A stretch of 30,421 bases of DNA from Mesaphorura yosii. Taxonomy: Eukaryota > Arthropoda > Collembola > Poduromorpha > Tullbergiidae. Positions 6,180 to 23,332 of the stretch are shown here, one piece after another; the first letter of the stretch is position 1, and every line of letters starts with the position of its first letter. The notes beneath the pieces were generated by a model that had not been told where the DNA came from, searched no databases, and worked only from the letters and a program-made list of their open reading frames with translations. Location of the stretch: assembly GCA_009869945.1 (NCBI GenBank), contig WIXG01000634.1:1-30421 (forward strand), given 5' to 3'. A program made the translations under genes and the position numbers.

Positions 6180-6185
6180 TTTATT
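6180..6185 (-). terminator. polyadenylation signal overlapping the stop codon of the MOXD1-like gene
   Basis: On the minus strand the end of the coding region reads GAATAAAAC, so AATAAA contains the TAA stop itself. The next obvious signal downstream is absent before the F-box gene's own signal. Confidence 0.6.
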
Positions 6186-8206
6186 CGCCTTTCTCGCAAC
6201 TCGAGACGTGCTCGTACACGTTGATGAGGTCGGATGGGTACCCCAGCCTGCCTTCCGTCGCGCCATGTGCCCGCGCCACCGCCGGAAAGCAGTTTGTCGT
6301 GTGTGGCGTGAAGCGTGACAGCTGCTGCCAGGCCGCCTTGCGCTCCTCCGTCCAGTTTCCGTTGTTCACGACGTCGAGGAAGCGTCGTCCGCTGTACTGG
6401 GCGGGGCTCGACACGAGGGGGTCGTGCATATCGCCCTCAACGGCCTCCACGCCAAAGAACCGCAGCACGGAGGGCAGAGGGACGTGACTCCCGCAGTAGC
6501 CGGACGTCGCCCTGACGGGGTAGTAAAGCAAGTACGCCTCACACATTTCGTGCGCCGTTGAAATCCCGCCAAATGTGGCGTTCCTTCGACCCGTCGTTTC
6601 GTAGCTGCACTCCAGCGTCAGCTGATCTCCGTGTCGAAGGGGCACCGGGATGCGGAAGGGACGGCTCTGCTGGTAGTTGAACTGGTAGTGTTCGTTGTTG
6701 TCTAGCCACGGCAGCTCCGTCCCGCCCCGGAAATGACGGAGCCGCATTTTGCGAGCTGCGAGATGCGCGTGAAGGAGGACGTTGAAGACTAGCGCACCAT
6801 CTGCGGGCGGGACGTAGTCGTGGAGGCAGGCGGGGTCGCAGTGCACCGAGTTGACAAAGGCAGGGCTGCCTGGCGGGATGACCTGCGACACGTCGACGGC
6901 GTAGCCGACAATCAGCGACCCCACGTCGTACTTCCGCAACTCCGGCGTGTAGTACACGTCCACGCCAGCTTCGAACCGGACGCCTTGCAGGAGGTTGGGG
7001 TTGTTGTAGTGTACTTCAAGCAGGTAGTACCGCGACTCAGCAGACTCGGCCCCGGAGTGCCCGCCGAATGCGAGCCCTGCCTCCTCGGGGAAAACGATCG
7101 GCTTGCCCCGAATCCCCCACGTGATTGGGTTGGCCGAGCAGAGTTGGTACTCCGAGAAATTAAAGCAGTCTTGTGGCGGCTGGCCCACCCAACGCTCCAG
7201 CAACGGCTCCAGCAGCGGCGCTCCGGCGCTCGGCACGCACTCGCGGACCATCCAATGGTGAACGTGCTCCTGGGCGACGGACGAAGACAGGACGGTTTCG
7301 TACTGAAAAGCAAACATGTTCAAACATGCACGGTTTACACAAGTGTTTACAGGGCAGGAGCTTCCATGGACGACGCGAGTGACTATGATTGCTTTTGCTT
7401 ACGCCAACGATATGGTGCTTCACCGCCAGTCTCGGCGCTTTGTGGATGGTGCAGCCGTAAAATGTTGACACGGTCGGCATGACTGCGTCACTCGTCACTC
7501 GCCACTTGTGCACACTGCGAAATGCGAGTCCGAATACGTGATAATAAAACAATGCTTGAAGGCCCTATTCAGAGTCTGACTACTCGATTACGGAGATTTA
7601 CCCTGGAAAGGCGGAAGGTGGCGCCACGGGCGGGTCGAGGAGGTTGACCATGTACGCTCCCCGCTGCGTGCTGGAGGACCCGTGGTACTGTATCTCGTCC
7701 GAGGGCCCAAACGCCCAGATGAGGTTGGTGGTGCTGTTGTCTATCGGGAGGTCCCCCTCCTCGTCGCAAGTGTTGAAGGGTCTCTCAACGACGAGCACCG
7801 TGTGCGTCGCGTTCTCGCGCGCCTGCAGAAGGGTCCAGTCTTGGCTCGCGTCCACCAGCGGCTCCCAGTTTCCGGTCCCGTGCCGGTCTGAGAAGTACGC
7901 GCTTCCGTTCTCGTGCACGCCGCCAATGACGATGTCCGCTCCCGTCATGCCCCCATCGGTCGACAGTCCGAAACCAACGAAGCCAGTCGTCTCGGCAGAG
8001 ATTTCGAACGTCACGACCCGTCTTGCAAAGTTCGTGCGCCAAAGCAAGGAAACTTTCCCGGCATTGTCGAGCACGTCACTCCGTTCAACGACGGAGCTCG
8101 GGTCTCGCCCGTTTGGCGATGAAGACGTTTTGATTCCAAAAAATGTCACGACTGCTGTTGTAATCGCCAGCAGCAGCAGAACACTTACAATCGTGCATAA
8201 CTGCAT
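6181..8206 (-). CDS. MOXD1: DBH-like/MOXD1-type copper type II monooxygenase
   Basis: Three exons, 7602-8206, 7403-7514 and 6181-7302 (introns of 87 and 100 bp), give 612 residues, the length of vertebrate MOXD1. An N-terminal hydrophobic segment (residues 5-25) acts as signal or anchor; a DOMON domain follows (about 45-175), then the two copper domains. All copper ligands are visible: HH at 254-255 (VHHWMVREC), H337 (LEVHYNNP), H417/H419 (LHAHL) and M492 (STAHEMC). The first domain's lead-in, FYGCTIHKAPRLAVKHHIV, lies in the small middle exon. The family uses ascorbate and oxygen to hydroxylate substrates in the secretory pathway; the natural MOXD1 substrate is not known. MOXD1 is favoured over dopamine or tyramine beta-hydroxylase by overall layout, but the paralogue choice is inference. 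The upstream in-frame extension to 8371 is not needed. Confidence 0.9.
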
Positions 8207-8489
8207 TGTGATGCGAATGTAATTACAGATTTCACATTGACTTGACACTGAAGTAAGCGTCAAGGGTAACTGAAAACCGAGGTAGACTAGATCACGTTCA
8301 TCATCTCGCCACAATTTTCGAGCGAGCAATATCAACACAGCACCCAATTTTGCGCAAAAGGATGAGCACACAATACATTGAATACGAGCAGAAACTCATT
8401 TTGTGGACACGACTGGCGGCCTCGTCCTTCAACGATTAAAGTCAGATTCACAAATTGTCGAATAAAATGACGCAGAACCATAAACGACA

Positions 8490-9778: not shown

Positions 9779-9994
9779 TTATGTGCCATGGTGAAGGGGC
9801 CAGGTGTCGGTGCAGGTGCCGTTGTGGCATTCCAAGTACGAACAGCAGTCGTCGTTTCGAGCGCAGGGGCCAAGGCTTCCTTGGCAGATTTGAGCGGCGA
9901 TCTCACCCACTGTCGCCAGCAGAATCGCCGCCACGGACAGGACGAGGGTGACCAGAAGAAGAAATGTGAAGTGGCGTTGGCCTGATGTCTCCAT
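9779..9994 (-). CDS. secreted single-domain knottin (inhibitor-cystine-knot-like) peptide
   Basis: A single-exon frame of 71 residues. Residues 9-33 are strongly hydrophobic and end in small residues, fitting a signal peptide cleaved near AAQ-I. The mature part has six cysteines spaced C-x6-C-x5-CC-x4-C-x4-C (starting CQGSLGPCARNDDCC), the classic cystine-knot arrangement seen in arthropod venom peptides, antimicrobial peptides and protease or channel inhibitors. The sequence alone does not say which role applies; the family is functionally promiscuous. A TATA-like CTTATA complement at 10097-10102 and a downstream AATAAA support an independent short transcript. It lacks the larger loops of the double-knottin gene at 21001, so it is at best a distant relative. 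Confidence 0.78.
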   Translation of the reverse strand: METSGQRHFTFLLLVTLVLSVAAILLATVGEIAAQICQGSLGPCARNDDCCSYLECHNGTCTDTWPLHHGT

Positions 9995-17070: not shown

Positions 17071-17342
17071 ATGATTGCGAGAGTTCTGCTTTCTTTTCTG
17101 CTGCTGAGCGCTTTCGCCAGCTGTTTGGTCGCTGCGGGTGGAAACTGCGGGTTCGGAGTCATCAATGGCGCCGGAGGCTACCGTGGCACTTGTCGATGTA
17201 AGCAATCGGTCCTTTCTCGCTTTGCAACGAGTTTTTGCAATTTCTTTTCCTGTTGGCAGACATTTGTTTAGCCCACGAACGGGTTTACCGAGCTGGGAAC
17301 GTCGGATGCCCGTCTGGCTGGGACTGCTGTGTGCCCTCTTAA
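17071..17342 (+). CDS. beta-defensin-like cysteine-rich secreted peptide
   Basis: Two exons, 17071-17197 and 17260-17342, with a 62-bp intron, give 69 residues. Residues 1-22 are a signal peptide (MIARVLLSFLLLSAFASCLV). The mature peptide has six cysteines spaced C-x14-C-x3-C-x13-C-x5-CC, beginning NCGFGVING and ending CPSGWDCCVPS. The closing C-x3-C-x13-C-x5-CC and a GYRGTCR segment before the second cysteine match the beta-defensin/big-defensin arrangement, with an unusually long first loop. Such peptides usually disrupt microbial membranes; activity here is inferred. The intron falls between the second and third cysteines. A TATA box, short leader and AATAAA at 17441 make a compact complete unit. 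Confidence 0.72.
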
Positions 17343-20424: not shown

Positions 20425-20612
20425 TTATCCCAAGAGATAACCCAGGTAGCCCACGTGGTGTCCTCCACCTGCAAATAAGCGCTCCTTAGCCTCACAGTGG
20501 AGCGGCGGAGACGGTAGCTAAGTTTAGCTGGGGCTTACCGAGAACAAGCGGCGGGTGGCCGTAGCCTTCGTGGTGAATCACCGCGCCGTGGGAATGCTGG
20601 ACGTGACCTCAG
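20425..20612 (-). pseudogene. possible His/Gly-rich secreted-peptide gene, broken or incompletely resolved
   Basis: On the minus strand, an exon ending at 20539 (HSHGAVIHHEGYGHPPLVL) joins in phase, across a 70-bp GTAAGC...TTTGCAG intron, to 20425-20468, which reads GGHHVGYLGYLLG and a TAA stop. His/Gly/Tyr-rich tails like this occur in cuticle-associated and antimicrobial peptides. Going upstream the frame meets a TGA (at about 20600) between HHPH and GHVQ. No signal-peptide exon was found. It may be a pseudogene, or the TGA may lie in another intron ending at a nearby AG. Confidence 0.35.
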
Positions 20613-20935
20613 TGTGGGTGGTGAACAATTGGAACGGGCTGCAATCAACCTGCATGGCGGCGTGGAGGACCATCGCGAATGCCGATTAAATCCGCGTCTT
20701 TGTCGTCGCCCTGCATTATATTTCGACCGACCTTCATCTTTGCACTGTGATTTACGAGGAAAGTCTTGGTTTGCTGTTATTTGGCAAGGCAAGCAATGAG
20801 TGCTGACCTCTGACATTCCTGACTCAGACTCAGACCTCCACCTCTGCCGTGCTGGTTCAGCGGTTGAGTGTTTTTCCCGAGAAATTCGCTTTCGCTCCAT
20901 TTCGATGTCAATTATTATCCCGACGTTCCAACGCC

Positions 20936-20943
20936 TTTAAAAG
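20936..20943 (+). promoter_or_regulatory. TATA-like box of the double-knottin gene
   Basis: TTTAAAAG lies 65 bp before the ATG at 21001, predicting a start near 20966 and a leader of about 35 nt. Confidence 0.5.
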
Positions 20944-21000
20944 GTGGCAGCCGCGATAGCCAAGTCAAGCATTTGTCTTTTGGCCTGCTTCACTATCGAA

Positions 21001-21371
21001 ATGGCTCCTGCAACTCGCGCATTTATCGCTCTGCTGCTTCTGGCGGGCCTTGGCGCAGGCACTCAAGCTGTAATTTTCTCATGATAAGGCTTTGGCTTTC
21101 AATTTATTGATCTGATTCTGGTTTACAGTGCATTCGGAACGGTTTTGCCTGTCAATGGGACTCGGCCTGGAGCCACTGCTGCTCCGGCTTCTGCCTGCAG
21201 GGCCCCGCCGACTCGTACGGCGTCTGCGTGCCGAAGGTCGTGCTCAGCCTAGACGAAGCGTGCGACATGAGCATGTCCCGAGGCATCTGCTGCACCGGAT
21301 ACTGCCACCAGCCAGACCCCAACACCTGGGGTTCCTGCGCCAGACATTCCCAATTCACGTCGATCTGCTGA
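21001..21371 (+). CDS. secreted double-knottin cysteine-rich peptide
   Basis: Two exons, 21001-21069 and 21129-21371, split by a 59-bp intron, give 103 residues. Exon 1 is exactly a signal peptide (MAPATRAFIALLLLAGLGAG then TQA) and the phase-0 intron falls directly before the first cysteine. Module 1 is C-x6-C-x8-CC-x3-C-x10-C (CIRNGFACQ ... HCCSGFC). Module 2 lacks the first cysteine but keeps C-x8-CC-x3-C-x10-C (CDMSMSRGICCTGYC), and one more cysteine ends the protein. These are cystine-knot-like modules. Module 1 has exactly the spacing of the second ectodomain module of the receptor kinase downstream, and the same intron position. Role unknown: ligand, decoy, inhibitor or antimicrobial are all possible. 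Confidence 0.82.
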
Positions 21372-21436
21372 ACAACTCAACACGTGCGACGGGCACGAAT
21401 TTCCCGTCTTTGTTTGTTGGTTTTGTAACTGCGATA

Positions 21437-21442
21437 AATAAA
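21437..21442 (+). terminator. polyadenylation signal of the double-knottin gene
   Basis: AATAAA 66 bp after the stop. It separates this transcript from the receptor kinase unless it is skipped. Confidence 0.55.
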
Positions 21443-21727
21443 TATTTGCTTGTTCTTGCGATGTGCAATGCGAAAGGAGTCAGGTCGAGATCACGTTATC
21501 AAACTTCTTATCTCTGGCCACTTCTTGAGAATTCTGAGCTCTGTGTGTGACTGCGACTCGTCTCATCTCTCAGCCGCTTGCATTTTGTCTGCTCATTTAC
21601 ATTTTACACTCGTCTTGCTGCGCAGTGGCTCTTCACGCTATTAGTCGACGTGTGCCCTTGCGGTGGAGTCCCAAACCTACTGCCACTTTGTCGTTTAGGG
21701 CGAAAATATAGTCAAAATACCCGCGAT

Positions 21728-23332
21728 ATGTTAGAGAGGTATCAAGTGCCATCCCTGCCAACATCTGCGTCGTGGTGCCTGAAGGCCAACGCCACGTGCT
21801 TCCCTGAAAGCGGTCGAGTCGCCGCCCCTGAGGATGTGCACCTGCCTGCCATTCTGCCCTGTTGTGAGGGCGATTGCTTCGTCCCCCGAGGACAGCAAGT
21901 CGGATTCTGTCCTTGGAAAATCGTATGTAATGCACCAGAAACGGTGCTCCCGAAGGCGAGGGAGTAATTCCGCCACCGCTTCCTGCTTCCCTTGTATTAA
22001 ACTCTGATTTCCCTGCAGTGCATCGACGACAACCACGCCTGCTTCGCCAACGCAAGTTCCGGCATCTGCTGCTCGGGCTTCTGCGATCAGGTTCAGGGCG
22101 AGCCCAACGGCACGTGCGCCGACCCGAACAACAGGAGAATGCCTCCCGTCTTCATTCCCCTGCCTCAAGACGGTCCCCAGCCCCAGCCGACCTCTGTGGA
22201 AAACACGACAGGGCCCTACATTTACGGGCTCATCGGCACCAGCGCTGCGCTCCTTCTCCTCCTCGTCCTCGGGGCAGCCGTCTGGTGCCGAATGCGAGGG
22301 TGGACGTTCGGAAGGGGCAAGGAGAGGCCCCCGCCTCTACCTCTGGCCACGTACGCCCACCTGAAACCCCTCCTCACGGACGCCTGCAGGAAGTTCGAAG
22401 TGGACAAGCAAGACTTCTGTGTCGATTCCTCCTTGTCGGGACTGCTCGGCAAAGGCGAGTTTGGCGTCGTCCTGAAAGCCCGCCTGCGGGGTGTGACCGT
22501 CGCCGCAAAAACTGCGTCGCTGTCGGTGGAGGGCCCGAGCGCCGAAGTGGCCGGTGCTGCGCAGTGGATGGCGTTGCTGCAGGAGCTGAAGGTTCGTGTC
22601 CACGTCGGCCTGCACGAGAACCTCGTCGCGCTGGTCGGTGCCCACACGCAGCGCCTCCGCCAGGGCGTGTGCTACGTCTTTGTAGAGCTCTGCGCCAACG
22701 GGAATCTGGAGGAGTACCTCGACGCCCATCGCGACACATTTCCAGGGTTACCGCAGCCAAAGCCAGGCGAGTACGTGGCCCTGCCCCCAACTGGGCGGGA
22801 GCCGGGTTTCCTCTCTCCGAAACACCTCCGTCTATGGAGTCGTGACATTTGCGCGGGGATGGAGCACCTCGCCTCGCTCCCCATAGTCCACTCTGACCTG
22901 GCCACCCGGAACGTGCTCCTGTCGGAGAGGCTGGTGGCTAAGATTGGGGACTTTGGCCTCTCACAGCGGGTGTACGACACCTGTCGGGGCTACGTCACGA
23001 GAAACGCCAACACGGGCGCCGGGTCGCGAGGCCGCATTCCGTGGCAGCACATGGCGCCCGAGGCCCTGACCCACCTCAAATTCTCGGAACAGTCTGACGT
23101 GTGGGCATTCGGAGTGACTCTCTGGCAACTGTATACACTTGGTGGACAGCTGCCTTACGCGCCGCTGGAGTGGAAGCAGGACTTTGCGCAGATGCTCGTC
23201 AACGGCACACGACTCTCCCAGCCAGAGCACGCCCCCAACGGGGTTTATGAGCTCATGCGGGTCTGCTGGGCTCTGGAGCCCCGAGAGCGGCCTTCGTTTG
23301 AGGAGCTGCACGGAGCCTTGCAAGAAATCTGA
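21728..23332 (+). CDS. receptor tyrosine kinase with knottin-like ectodomain
   Basis: The supported exons, 21728-21922 (possibly from 21626) and 22019-23332, give at least 502 residues. The ectodomain has two modules: C-x6-C-x20-CC-x3-C-x10-C (residues 17-61), then, after a phase-0 intron, C-x6-C-x8-CC-x3-C-x10-C (66-98). A transmembrane helix follows at about 132-154 (IGTSAALLLLLVLGAAVW). The kinase domain shows GKGEFG (209-214), the lysine in VAAKT (229), LHENLV, HSDLATRN as catalytic loop, DFGLSQ, IPWQHMAPEAL and SDVWAFG, with a short insert before the catalytic loop. Asp and Asn of the catalytic loop and DFG are present, so activity is expected; the HRD arginine is serine. LATRN and the WQHMAPE block indicate tyrosine specificity, nearest in style to PDGFR/VEGFR/Torso kinases. 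No signal peptide is visible at 21728, so the true first exon is unresolved. Confidence 0.85.

Follow-up and report, generated by a model that had tools for sequence, protein, structure and literature searches.

Animal receptor tyrosine kinases (RTKs) are usually described as fixed families with a fixed set of ectodomains. Those of the PDGFR/VEGFR/FGFR type carry Ig domains. The receptor gene described here, from the springtail Mesaphorura yosii, resembles them in the fold and motifs of its kinase and in its single transmembrane helix. It differs in having knottins in place of Ig domains, a very short ectodomain, and HSD for HRD in the catalytic loop. Its extracellular modules in turn resemble the Alo/PAFP-S antifungal peptides of beetles and plants (PF11410), with which they share the six-cysteine spacing, the Gly before the last Cys, and matches in Pfam and the PDB. 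Unlike these peptides, the receptor modules are fused to a membrane kinase, arranged in tandem, and acidic or neutral. In springtails, the Alo motif has been given as C-X6-C-X7-9-CC-X3-C-X10-C (PMC10051947). The word kinase is absent from the main text of that paper, and from that of the paper on the Folsomia genome (PMC5490193). None of the best matches listed in open-licence papers is an RTK with knottins. This fits a remark of the first-pass annotation of this DNA, that no described RTK family has them. Venus kinase receptors and choanoflagellate RTKs likewise have an ectodomain not otherwise used in RTKs; the ectodomains and the lineages are other ones. A further comparison comes from plants, where the characterised receptor kinases with a non-RD motif act in microbe recognition (PMC3411088, 2012). 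Like the springtail receptor, FLS2, EFR and XA21 lack an Arg before the catalytic Asp and have an extracellular recognition head (PMC3411088). They differ in their LRR heads and in being of the plant receptor-kinase type, and there is no homology of the whole receptors. The springtail receptor is of the tyrosine-kinase type and is a putative microbe sensor.

Structure of the two genes

The window, i.e. the whole stretch of DNA that was analysed (30,421 nucleotides), is contig C634 of the assembly searched (93 Mb, 1127 contigs), in which 66 Chitin_bind_4 matches point to an arthropod. A two-exon gene at 21001-21371 encodes a predicted secreted protein of 103 aa, according to a splice model read on the DNA. 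It is followed by the kinase gene, which ends at 23332 and may start at 21728. The features of both are as follows.

21001..21069, + strand: secreted gene exon 1, signal peptide (MAPATRAFIALLLLAGLGAGTQA), ending in phase 0
21070..21128, + strand: secreted gene phase-0 intron, GT..AG, ending right before the first Cys codon (DNA reading)
21129..21371, + strand: secreted gene exon 2, including the stop codon (frame reading)
21129..21227, + strand: secreted knottin module 1 (Antifungal_pept), 33.7 bits in the genome profile search
21261..21338, + strand: secreted protein module 2, 20.5 bits in the same search, below the cut-off of 22
21437..21442, + strand: AATAAA that may serve the secreted gene for polyadenylation (by eye)
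21728..21922, + strand: kinase gene 5' exon; the in-frame ATG at 21728, which no signal peptide follows, is an uncertain start
21776..21910, + strand: receptor knottin module 1, with a long second loop; alignable to the other modules at six Cys and a Gly
21923..22018, + strand: kinase gene phase-0 intron, GTATGT..TGCAG (DNA reading)
22019..23332, + strand: kinase main exon with module 2, linker, transmembrane helix, kinase and stop, in a 443-aa stop-to-stop frame (22001-23332)
22019..22117, + strand: receptor knottin module 2 (Antifungal_pept), genome profile search score 29.5 bits
22220..22288, + strand: predicted transmembrane helix IYGLIGTSAALLLLLVLGAAVWC, then basic residues (by eye)
22442..23317, + strand: tyrosine kinase domain, PK_Tyr_Ser-Thr (PF07714), 200.5 bits
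22889..22912, + strand: catalytic loop HSDLATRN, which retains the catalytic Asp and has Ser for the Arg of HRD (non-RD; alignment)

Module 1 of the secreted protein (CIRNGFACQWDSAWSHCCSGFCLQGPADSYGVC) and module 2 of the receptor (CIDDNHACFANASSGICCSGFCDQVQGEPNGTC) have the same spacing, C-x6-C-x8-CC-x3-C-x10-C, with the core CCSGFC. Each is preceded by a phase-0 intron (21070-21128 and 21923-22018) whose last base adjoins the first Cys codon. Both points had been made in the first-pass annotation, and both are borne out by the DNA. A six-frame search of the window finds this exact spacing at two places. When the window was resampled 150 times with a first-order Markov model, the spacing never arose, and on this ground we reject a chance pattern. 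In receptor module 1, spaced C-x6-C-x20-CC-x3-C-x10-C, the first Cys does not directly follow an intron. The secreted protein's module 2 is without the first usual Cys and carries an additional Cys at the C-terminus.

The whole secreted protein matches the Pfam family Antifungal_pept (PF11410) with 44.3 bits (cut-off 22). The receptor scores 26.0 bits as spliced protein and 27.4 with the exon alone, so that PF11410 and PF07714 are both above cut-off in one protein. The Pfam scan found no Ig domain in the receptor protein, and Rfam gave no match at gathering score in the window. In a protein collection, none of 3420 candidates for residues 1-200 of the 437-aa exon product and none of 8 candidates for the secreted protein was a relative at E <= 0.001. 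Since a tyrosine kinase query found no relatives there, the collection is probably poor in animal proteins, and the outcome is uninformative on distribution.

A single open frame runs through module 2, the helix and the kinase, and their fusion is thus independent of splicing. The fusion of this knottin module and the kinase is real at the DNA level. One could still suspect an artefact of the gene model, with a small secreted knottin gene standing by chance beside an unrelated kinase, given that the 5' exon is uncertain and that the gene model is a reading of the DNA. For module 2 the single open frame already contradicts this, and the same build is seen in two other genes (on contigs C280 and C599) whose kinases form one clade with this one. 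We consider such an artefact extremely improbable. The gene very probably encodes a real membrane receptor kinase with knottin modules.

Elsewhere in the window, Pfam places a Tc5-type transposase fragment (HTH_Tnp_Tc5, DDE_1) at 1-855 on the minus strand. At 6181-8395, also on the minus strand, a DOMON domain adjoins copper monooxygenase domains; together they are probably one dopamine-beta-hydroxylase-like gene.

Identity and charge of the modules

A profile built from eight modules of this genome was compared with the PDB. The first matches were PAFP-S (1dkc, E 3.3e-8) and Alo3 (1q3j, E 1.1e-6), then pB1 (5xbd, 2.2e-5); bidentatide (0.33) and a nanobody (6) were non-significant. Six Cys and one Gly are invariant in all eight aligned modules. 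Judged by these matches, the modules belong to the Antifungal_pept family and are not generic knottins. From the cysteine spacing we infer cystine-knot pairing.

The cationic character typical of Alo/PAFP-S is absent from the window's receptor modules and from module 1 of its secreted protein. The net charges of the five receptor modules of the window, C280 and C599 are -2, -4, 0, -8 and -3, the window's pair having -2 and -4, and together they contain 3 Lys+Arg versus 20 Asp+Glu. The PAFP-S and Alo3 cores are at net +2 each, with 2 Lys+Arg and no Asp or Glu. A cationic character is likewise missing from the free knottins counted in this genome (-1 for the window's secreted module 1, -1 for C508, -5 for C422), and acidity is therefore not special to receptors. 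Set against the +2 cores, the charges of the receptor modules make microbe killing as by PAFP-S or Alo3 unlikely, and for this reason we read the modules as binding heads. The receptor could alternatively be a membrane-tethered antifungal peptide, still antimicrobial, whose engagement is reported by the kinase. Membership of an antifungal-peptide family, as seen in the Pfam and PDB matches, speaks for this; the excess of acidic residues, unlike the cores of PAFP-S and Alo3, speaks against it. On the grounds of charge we rejected antimicrobial receptor heads as the leading idea, and hold them to be very unlikely.

Two other small genes of the window, both without Pfam match, may be mentioned. 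On the minus strand, 9779-9985 encodes a small secreted-looking peptide with another knottin-like pattern, C-x6-C-x5-CC-x4-C-x4-C. On the plus strand, a gene at 17071-17342, spliced by eye from two exons, encodes a small Cys-rich secreted peptide of about 69 aa.

The 5' end of the kinase gene

A hydropathy scan found no signal peptide in the kinase gene's own exons. The single candidate exon is exon 1 of the neighbour: the ATG at 21001 opens the only signal-peptide-like ATG frame listed for 20501-21800, and this frame has a phase-0 donor. Since the kinase's own 5' exon is without signal peptide, the start drawn at 21728 is tentative. The frame upstream of receptor module 1 is open back to 21551. 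The codon score is +13.5 for 21776-21922, -4.4 for 21728-21775 and -2.7 for 21626-21727; the last stretch scores -13.6 and -12.0 in the other two frames. The same scan gave 8 ATG frames for C280, 3 of them with a phase-0 donor, and 4 for C599, 2 of them with such a donor; none was convincing as signal peptide.

These data bear on the possibility that the locus is one gene with two products, the kinase having no exon for a signal peptide of its own. Alternative splicing would then link the secreted gene's exon 1 to the kinase as well, and yield both a membrane receptor and a soluble peptide with two knottins. The exon starting at 22019 and exon 2 of the secreted gene both begin in phase 0 at a first Cys, and exon 1 could thus join either. 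The uniqueness of the 21001 frame, the same order of genes on contig C647, and the open frame back to 21551, in which 21626-21727 is least bad, would also agree with this. On the other side, a possible AATAAA stands at 21437 between the two genes, and a phase-0 acceptor would be needed upstream of 21776, where the DNA is non-coding by score. C280 and C599 have no secreted knottin alongside (9-10 kb examined). We judge a shared exon 1 unlikely on balance.

The receptor may instead have no cleaved signal peptide at all. Its helix would then act as a reverse signal-anchor (type III topology), by which the short N-terminal knottin part is translocated across the membrane. The in-frame ATG at 21728 is followed by no hydrophobic stretch, and the window's helix is followed by CRMRGWTFGRGKER. 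In C599, an ATG lies three codons before the first Cys of the module, and SRHRKKK comes after the helix. Against this topology, the sister receptors C539, C578, C454, C727 and C553 have signal-peptide-like starts (by eye), and disulfide-rich N-termini are unusual cargo for the reverse signal-anchor route. It is, to us, a doubtful solution.

Paralogues in the same genome

The profile search found 13 PF11410 matches in the genome, 7 of them marked above cut-off. Six of the 13 are in a receptor gene or an adjoining secreted gene: three in the window (one below cut-off), two on C280 and one on C647. On C280, an exon of 120 bases (CLPYQSSC..C) has its acceptor directly before the first Cys and is followed by a phase-0 intron. 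A second module (CIEDDEEC..C) comes next, then the helix, an intron and the kinase. On C599, the module CLELQSPC..CC..C..C, the helix and the kinase are in one frame; this module is not among the Pfam PF11410 matches and has no intron directly before its first Cys. In both genes a hydrophobic segment lies at the same place as the window's helix. The 9-10 kb examined at these two loci contain no secreted knottin gene next to the receptor. Directly downstream of the C599 receptor lies a gene for a secreted protein that is kelch-like by eye (L022 945-2978).

Contig C647 has a secreted knottin gene and then a broken receptor copy, in the same gene order as the window. The helix and N-lobe of this copy are 38% identical to the window's receptor over 116 residues. 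After the N-lobe the frame changes, there is a stop, and about 107 kinase residues are lost; the knottin part is visible by eye only. Read in this way, the pair of secreted knottin and knottin receptor is present twice in the genome, once degraded.

Contig C508 (L013 1347-1700) has a near copy of the secreted gene, 80% identical over 61 aa, whose intron shows no GT donor at the expected place. By eye, this copy seems to continue into kelch-like sequence rather than stop. A small Gly/His-rich gene seems to adjoin the secreted knottin gene both in the window (20430-20760, minus strand) and on C508 (L013 200-600), as if Gly/His-rich and knottin genes had been duplicated together (by eye).

Origin of the fusion

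The kinases of C634, C599 and C280 form one clade with support 100/98 and long branches in an IQ-TREE analysis of 25 kinase domains of this genome, which indicates that the fusion is old. The 25 rows are a selection by availability out of 109 kinase matches in the genome. Some row labels were given by eye ('S8like' for C981 and C646, plain 'Ig' for C328 and C313, 'cys' for C727, and 'unk'), and C328, C387, C185, C646, C313 and C604 are rows without Pfam scan. C992 (HAD loop; frame cut) and ten further loci were left out. Long-branch warnings concern C454, C313, C727 and the ACK outgroup and none the knottin clade; the deeper forks of the tree are tentative.

Outside the cysteines, 27 positions can be compared. 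At these, receptor module 2 agrees with the second module of C280 in 11, with Alo3 in 8 and with the secreted neighbour in 7; the neighbour agrees with PAFP-S in 9. As 27 positions are few, this is a comparison and not a tree. The first-pass annotation had attributed the fusion to local exon duplication. We reject a recent event of this kind, module 2 being closer to C280 (11/27) than to the neighbour (7/27) and the kinases forming one clade (100/98). One old fusion would explain the module identities better than a recent local one. What stands of that annotation as an interpretation is its main picture, a receptor tyrosine kinase with knottins and, beside it, a secreted protein made of like modules: knottin and kinase share an open frame, their fusion recurs in C280 and C599, and C647 holds a degraded pair.

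Some knottin exons begin in phase 0 right at the first Cys codon. They belong to the window's secreted gene, to those of C422 and C229, and to receptor modules of both the window and C280 (by eye for C280, C422 and C229). The secreted knottin of C229 scores below cut-off and is without the second Cys. With such exons, exon shuffling is a natural route to the fusion.

Kinase type and catalytic loop

Among the best ten PDB matches of the kinase, nine are VEGFR2 and one is EGFR; VEGFR1, CSF1R, FGFR4 and KIT come next. Lys164, Glu189, Asp293, Asn298 and DFG are invariant between the window's kinase and 12 other kinases (13-row alignment). The predicted ectodomain is two tandem Alo/PAFP-S-type knottins, and the kinase is PDGFR/VEGFR/FGFR-like by its matches, with the catalytic Asp but not the HRD Arg. 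Loss of this Arg could mean weakened or differently regulated activity.

The window's kinase is not alone in this respect. When 25 domains were parsed, the HRD Arg was missing in all 24 non-ACK domains, the window's included, and present in the ACK homologue. Genome-wide, the motif HRDLAxRN had 34 matches, two of which read Ser, leaving 32. HGDLAxRN had 62, and H(A/S)DLAxRN had 18, two of them not kinase loops, leaving 16. A reversed control pattern gave 0 in each of the three counts. About 32 RD versus about 80 non-RD tyrosine-kinase loops are thus seen in the genome, counted as DNA motif matches and not as confirmed genes, with intron-split loops missed.

Ectodomains of sister receptors

Among 17 further kinase frames, 10 have an ectodomain family above the Pfam cut-off. 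Kelch heads are found in four (C539, C578, C654 and C732; L027, L032, L033 and L041) and EB heads in two (C553 and C799). C454 has an LDLa head, C789 a subtilase head and C535 a lysozyme head, and C346 an Ig head plus a lysozyme match below cut-off. No ectodomain family was found by Pfam in the other seven (C37, C1099, C981, C599, C727, C610 and C992). In C789 (L034 254-2827), a subtilase domain (98 bits) and a tyrosine kinase are in one 858-aa frame. Aligned to a solved chain, itself Ala at the Ser position, this subtilase keeps the catalytic Asp region and has Ile and Asn at the expected His and Ser. We take Asp, His and Ser to be the catalytic residues of the family. As two of the three are replaced, the C789 head is probably not a protease. 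In C535 (L026 4160-5659), the C-terminal part of a C-type lysozyme (48.7 bits) lies directly before the transmembrane helix and tyrosine kinase. In the 25-domain tree the knottin rows form one clade and the subtilase rows another; the kelch and the lysozyme rows form no single clade. This scatter fits an exchange of heads and is no proof of it.

Possible function

On balance we favour a single-pass receptor tyrosine kinase with two tandem knottins that would have arisen and would work as follows. A secreted-knottin exon may have been joined once to a receptor kinase, before the C634, C280 and C599 paralogues split, the recipient kinase coming from the large non-RD set with exchanged ectodomains. 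Whether by loss or from the outset, the knottin module would be without the cationic character that goes with killing microbes, and would serve as a compact binding head. Its ligand could be a molecule of microbial origin, or else a peptide, from the host or foreign, that binds knottins of this kind. Ligand binding would bring receptors together, and the kinases would then phosphorylate in trans. The secreted neighbour would be a co-inherited soluble knottin, which may compete for the same ligand or present it. The roles that the first-pass annotation offered for it, ligand, decoy or antagonist, are likewise conjectural.

Tentatively, we regard an immune or barrier-sensing role as the likeliest. 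This reading comes from the effector-type heads (lysozyme, subtilase) and from the non-RD loop, as in plant microbe receptors. An immune role is argued from analogy and from ectodomain types; the kelch, EB, LDLa and Ig heads are uninformative on immunity. A bolder proposal, which is speculative and in our opinion rather unlikely, is that this lineage has an animal counterpart of the plant receptor-kinase arsenal, in which non-RD RTKs would carry retired secreted effectors as integrated decoys or sensors and the knottin receptors with their linked secreted knottins would be one branch. The retired effectors would be the antifungal knottin, the lysozyme, the dead subtilase and others, and they would, with the same low probability, sense microbial molecules aimed at effectors.

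The receptor may also matter for genes already published. Of the 12 springtail Alo gene models, 8 are without both ends and 2 more without the N-terminus (PMC10051947). We conjecture that some published springtail Alo genes may be exons of receptors like that of the window. For the receptor family itself, the data point to an RTK clade headed by antifungal-peptide modules, within a much larger non-RD set with exchangeable heads. If the immune reading is true, a repertoire of tyrosine-kinase receptors for microbes would have evolved in animals, in parallel to the non-RD receptor kinases of plants.
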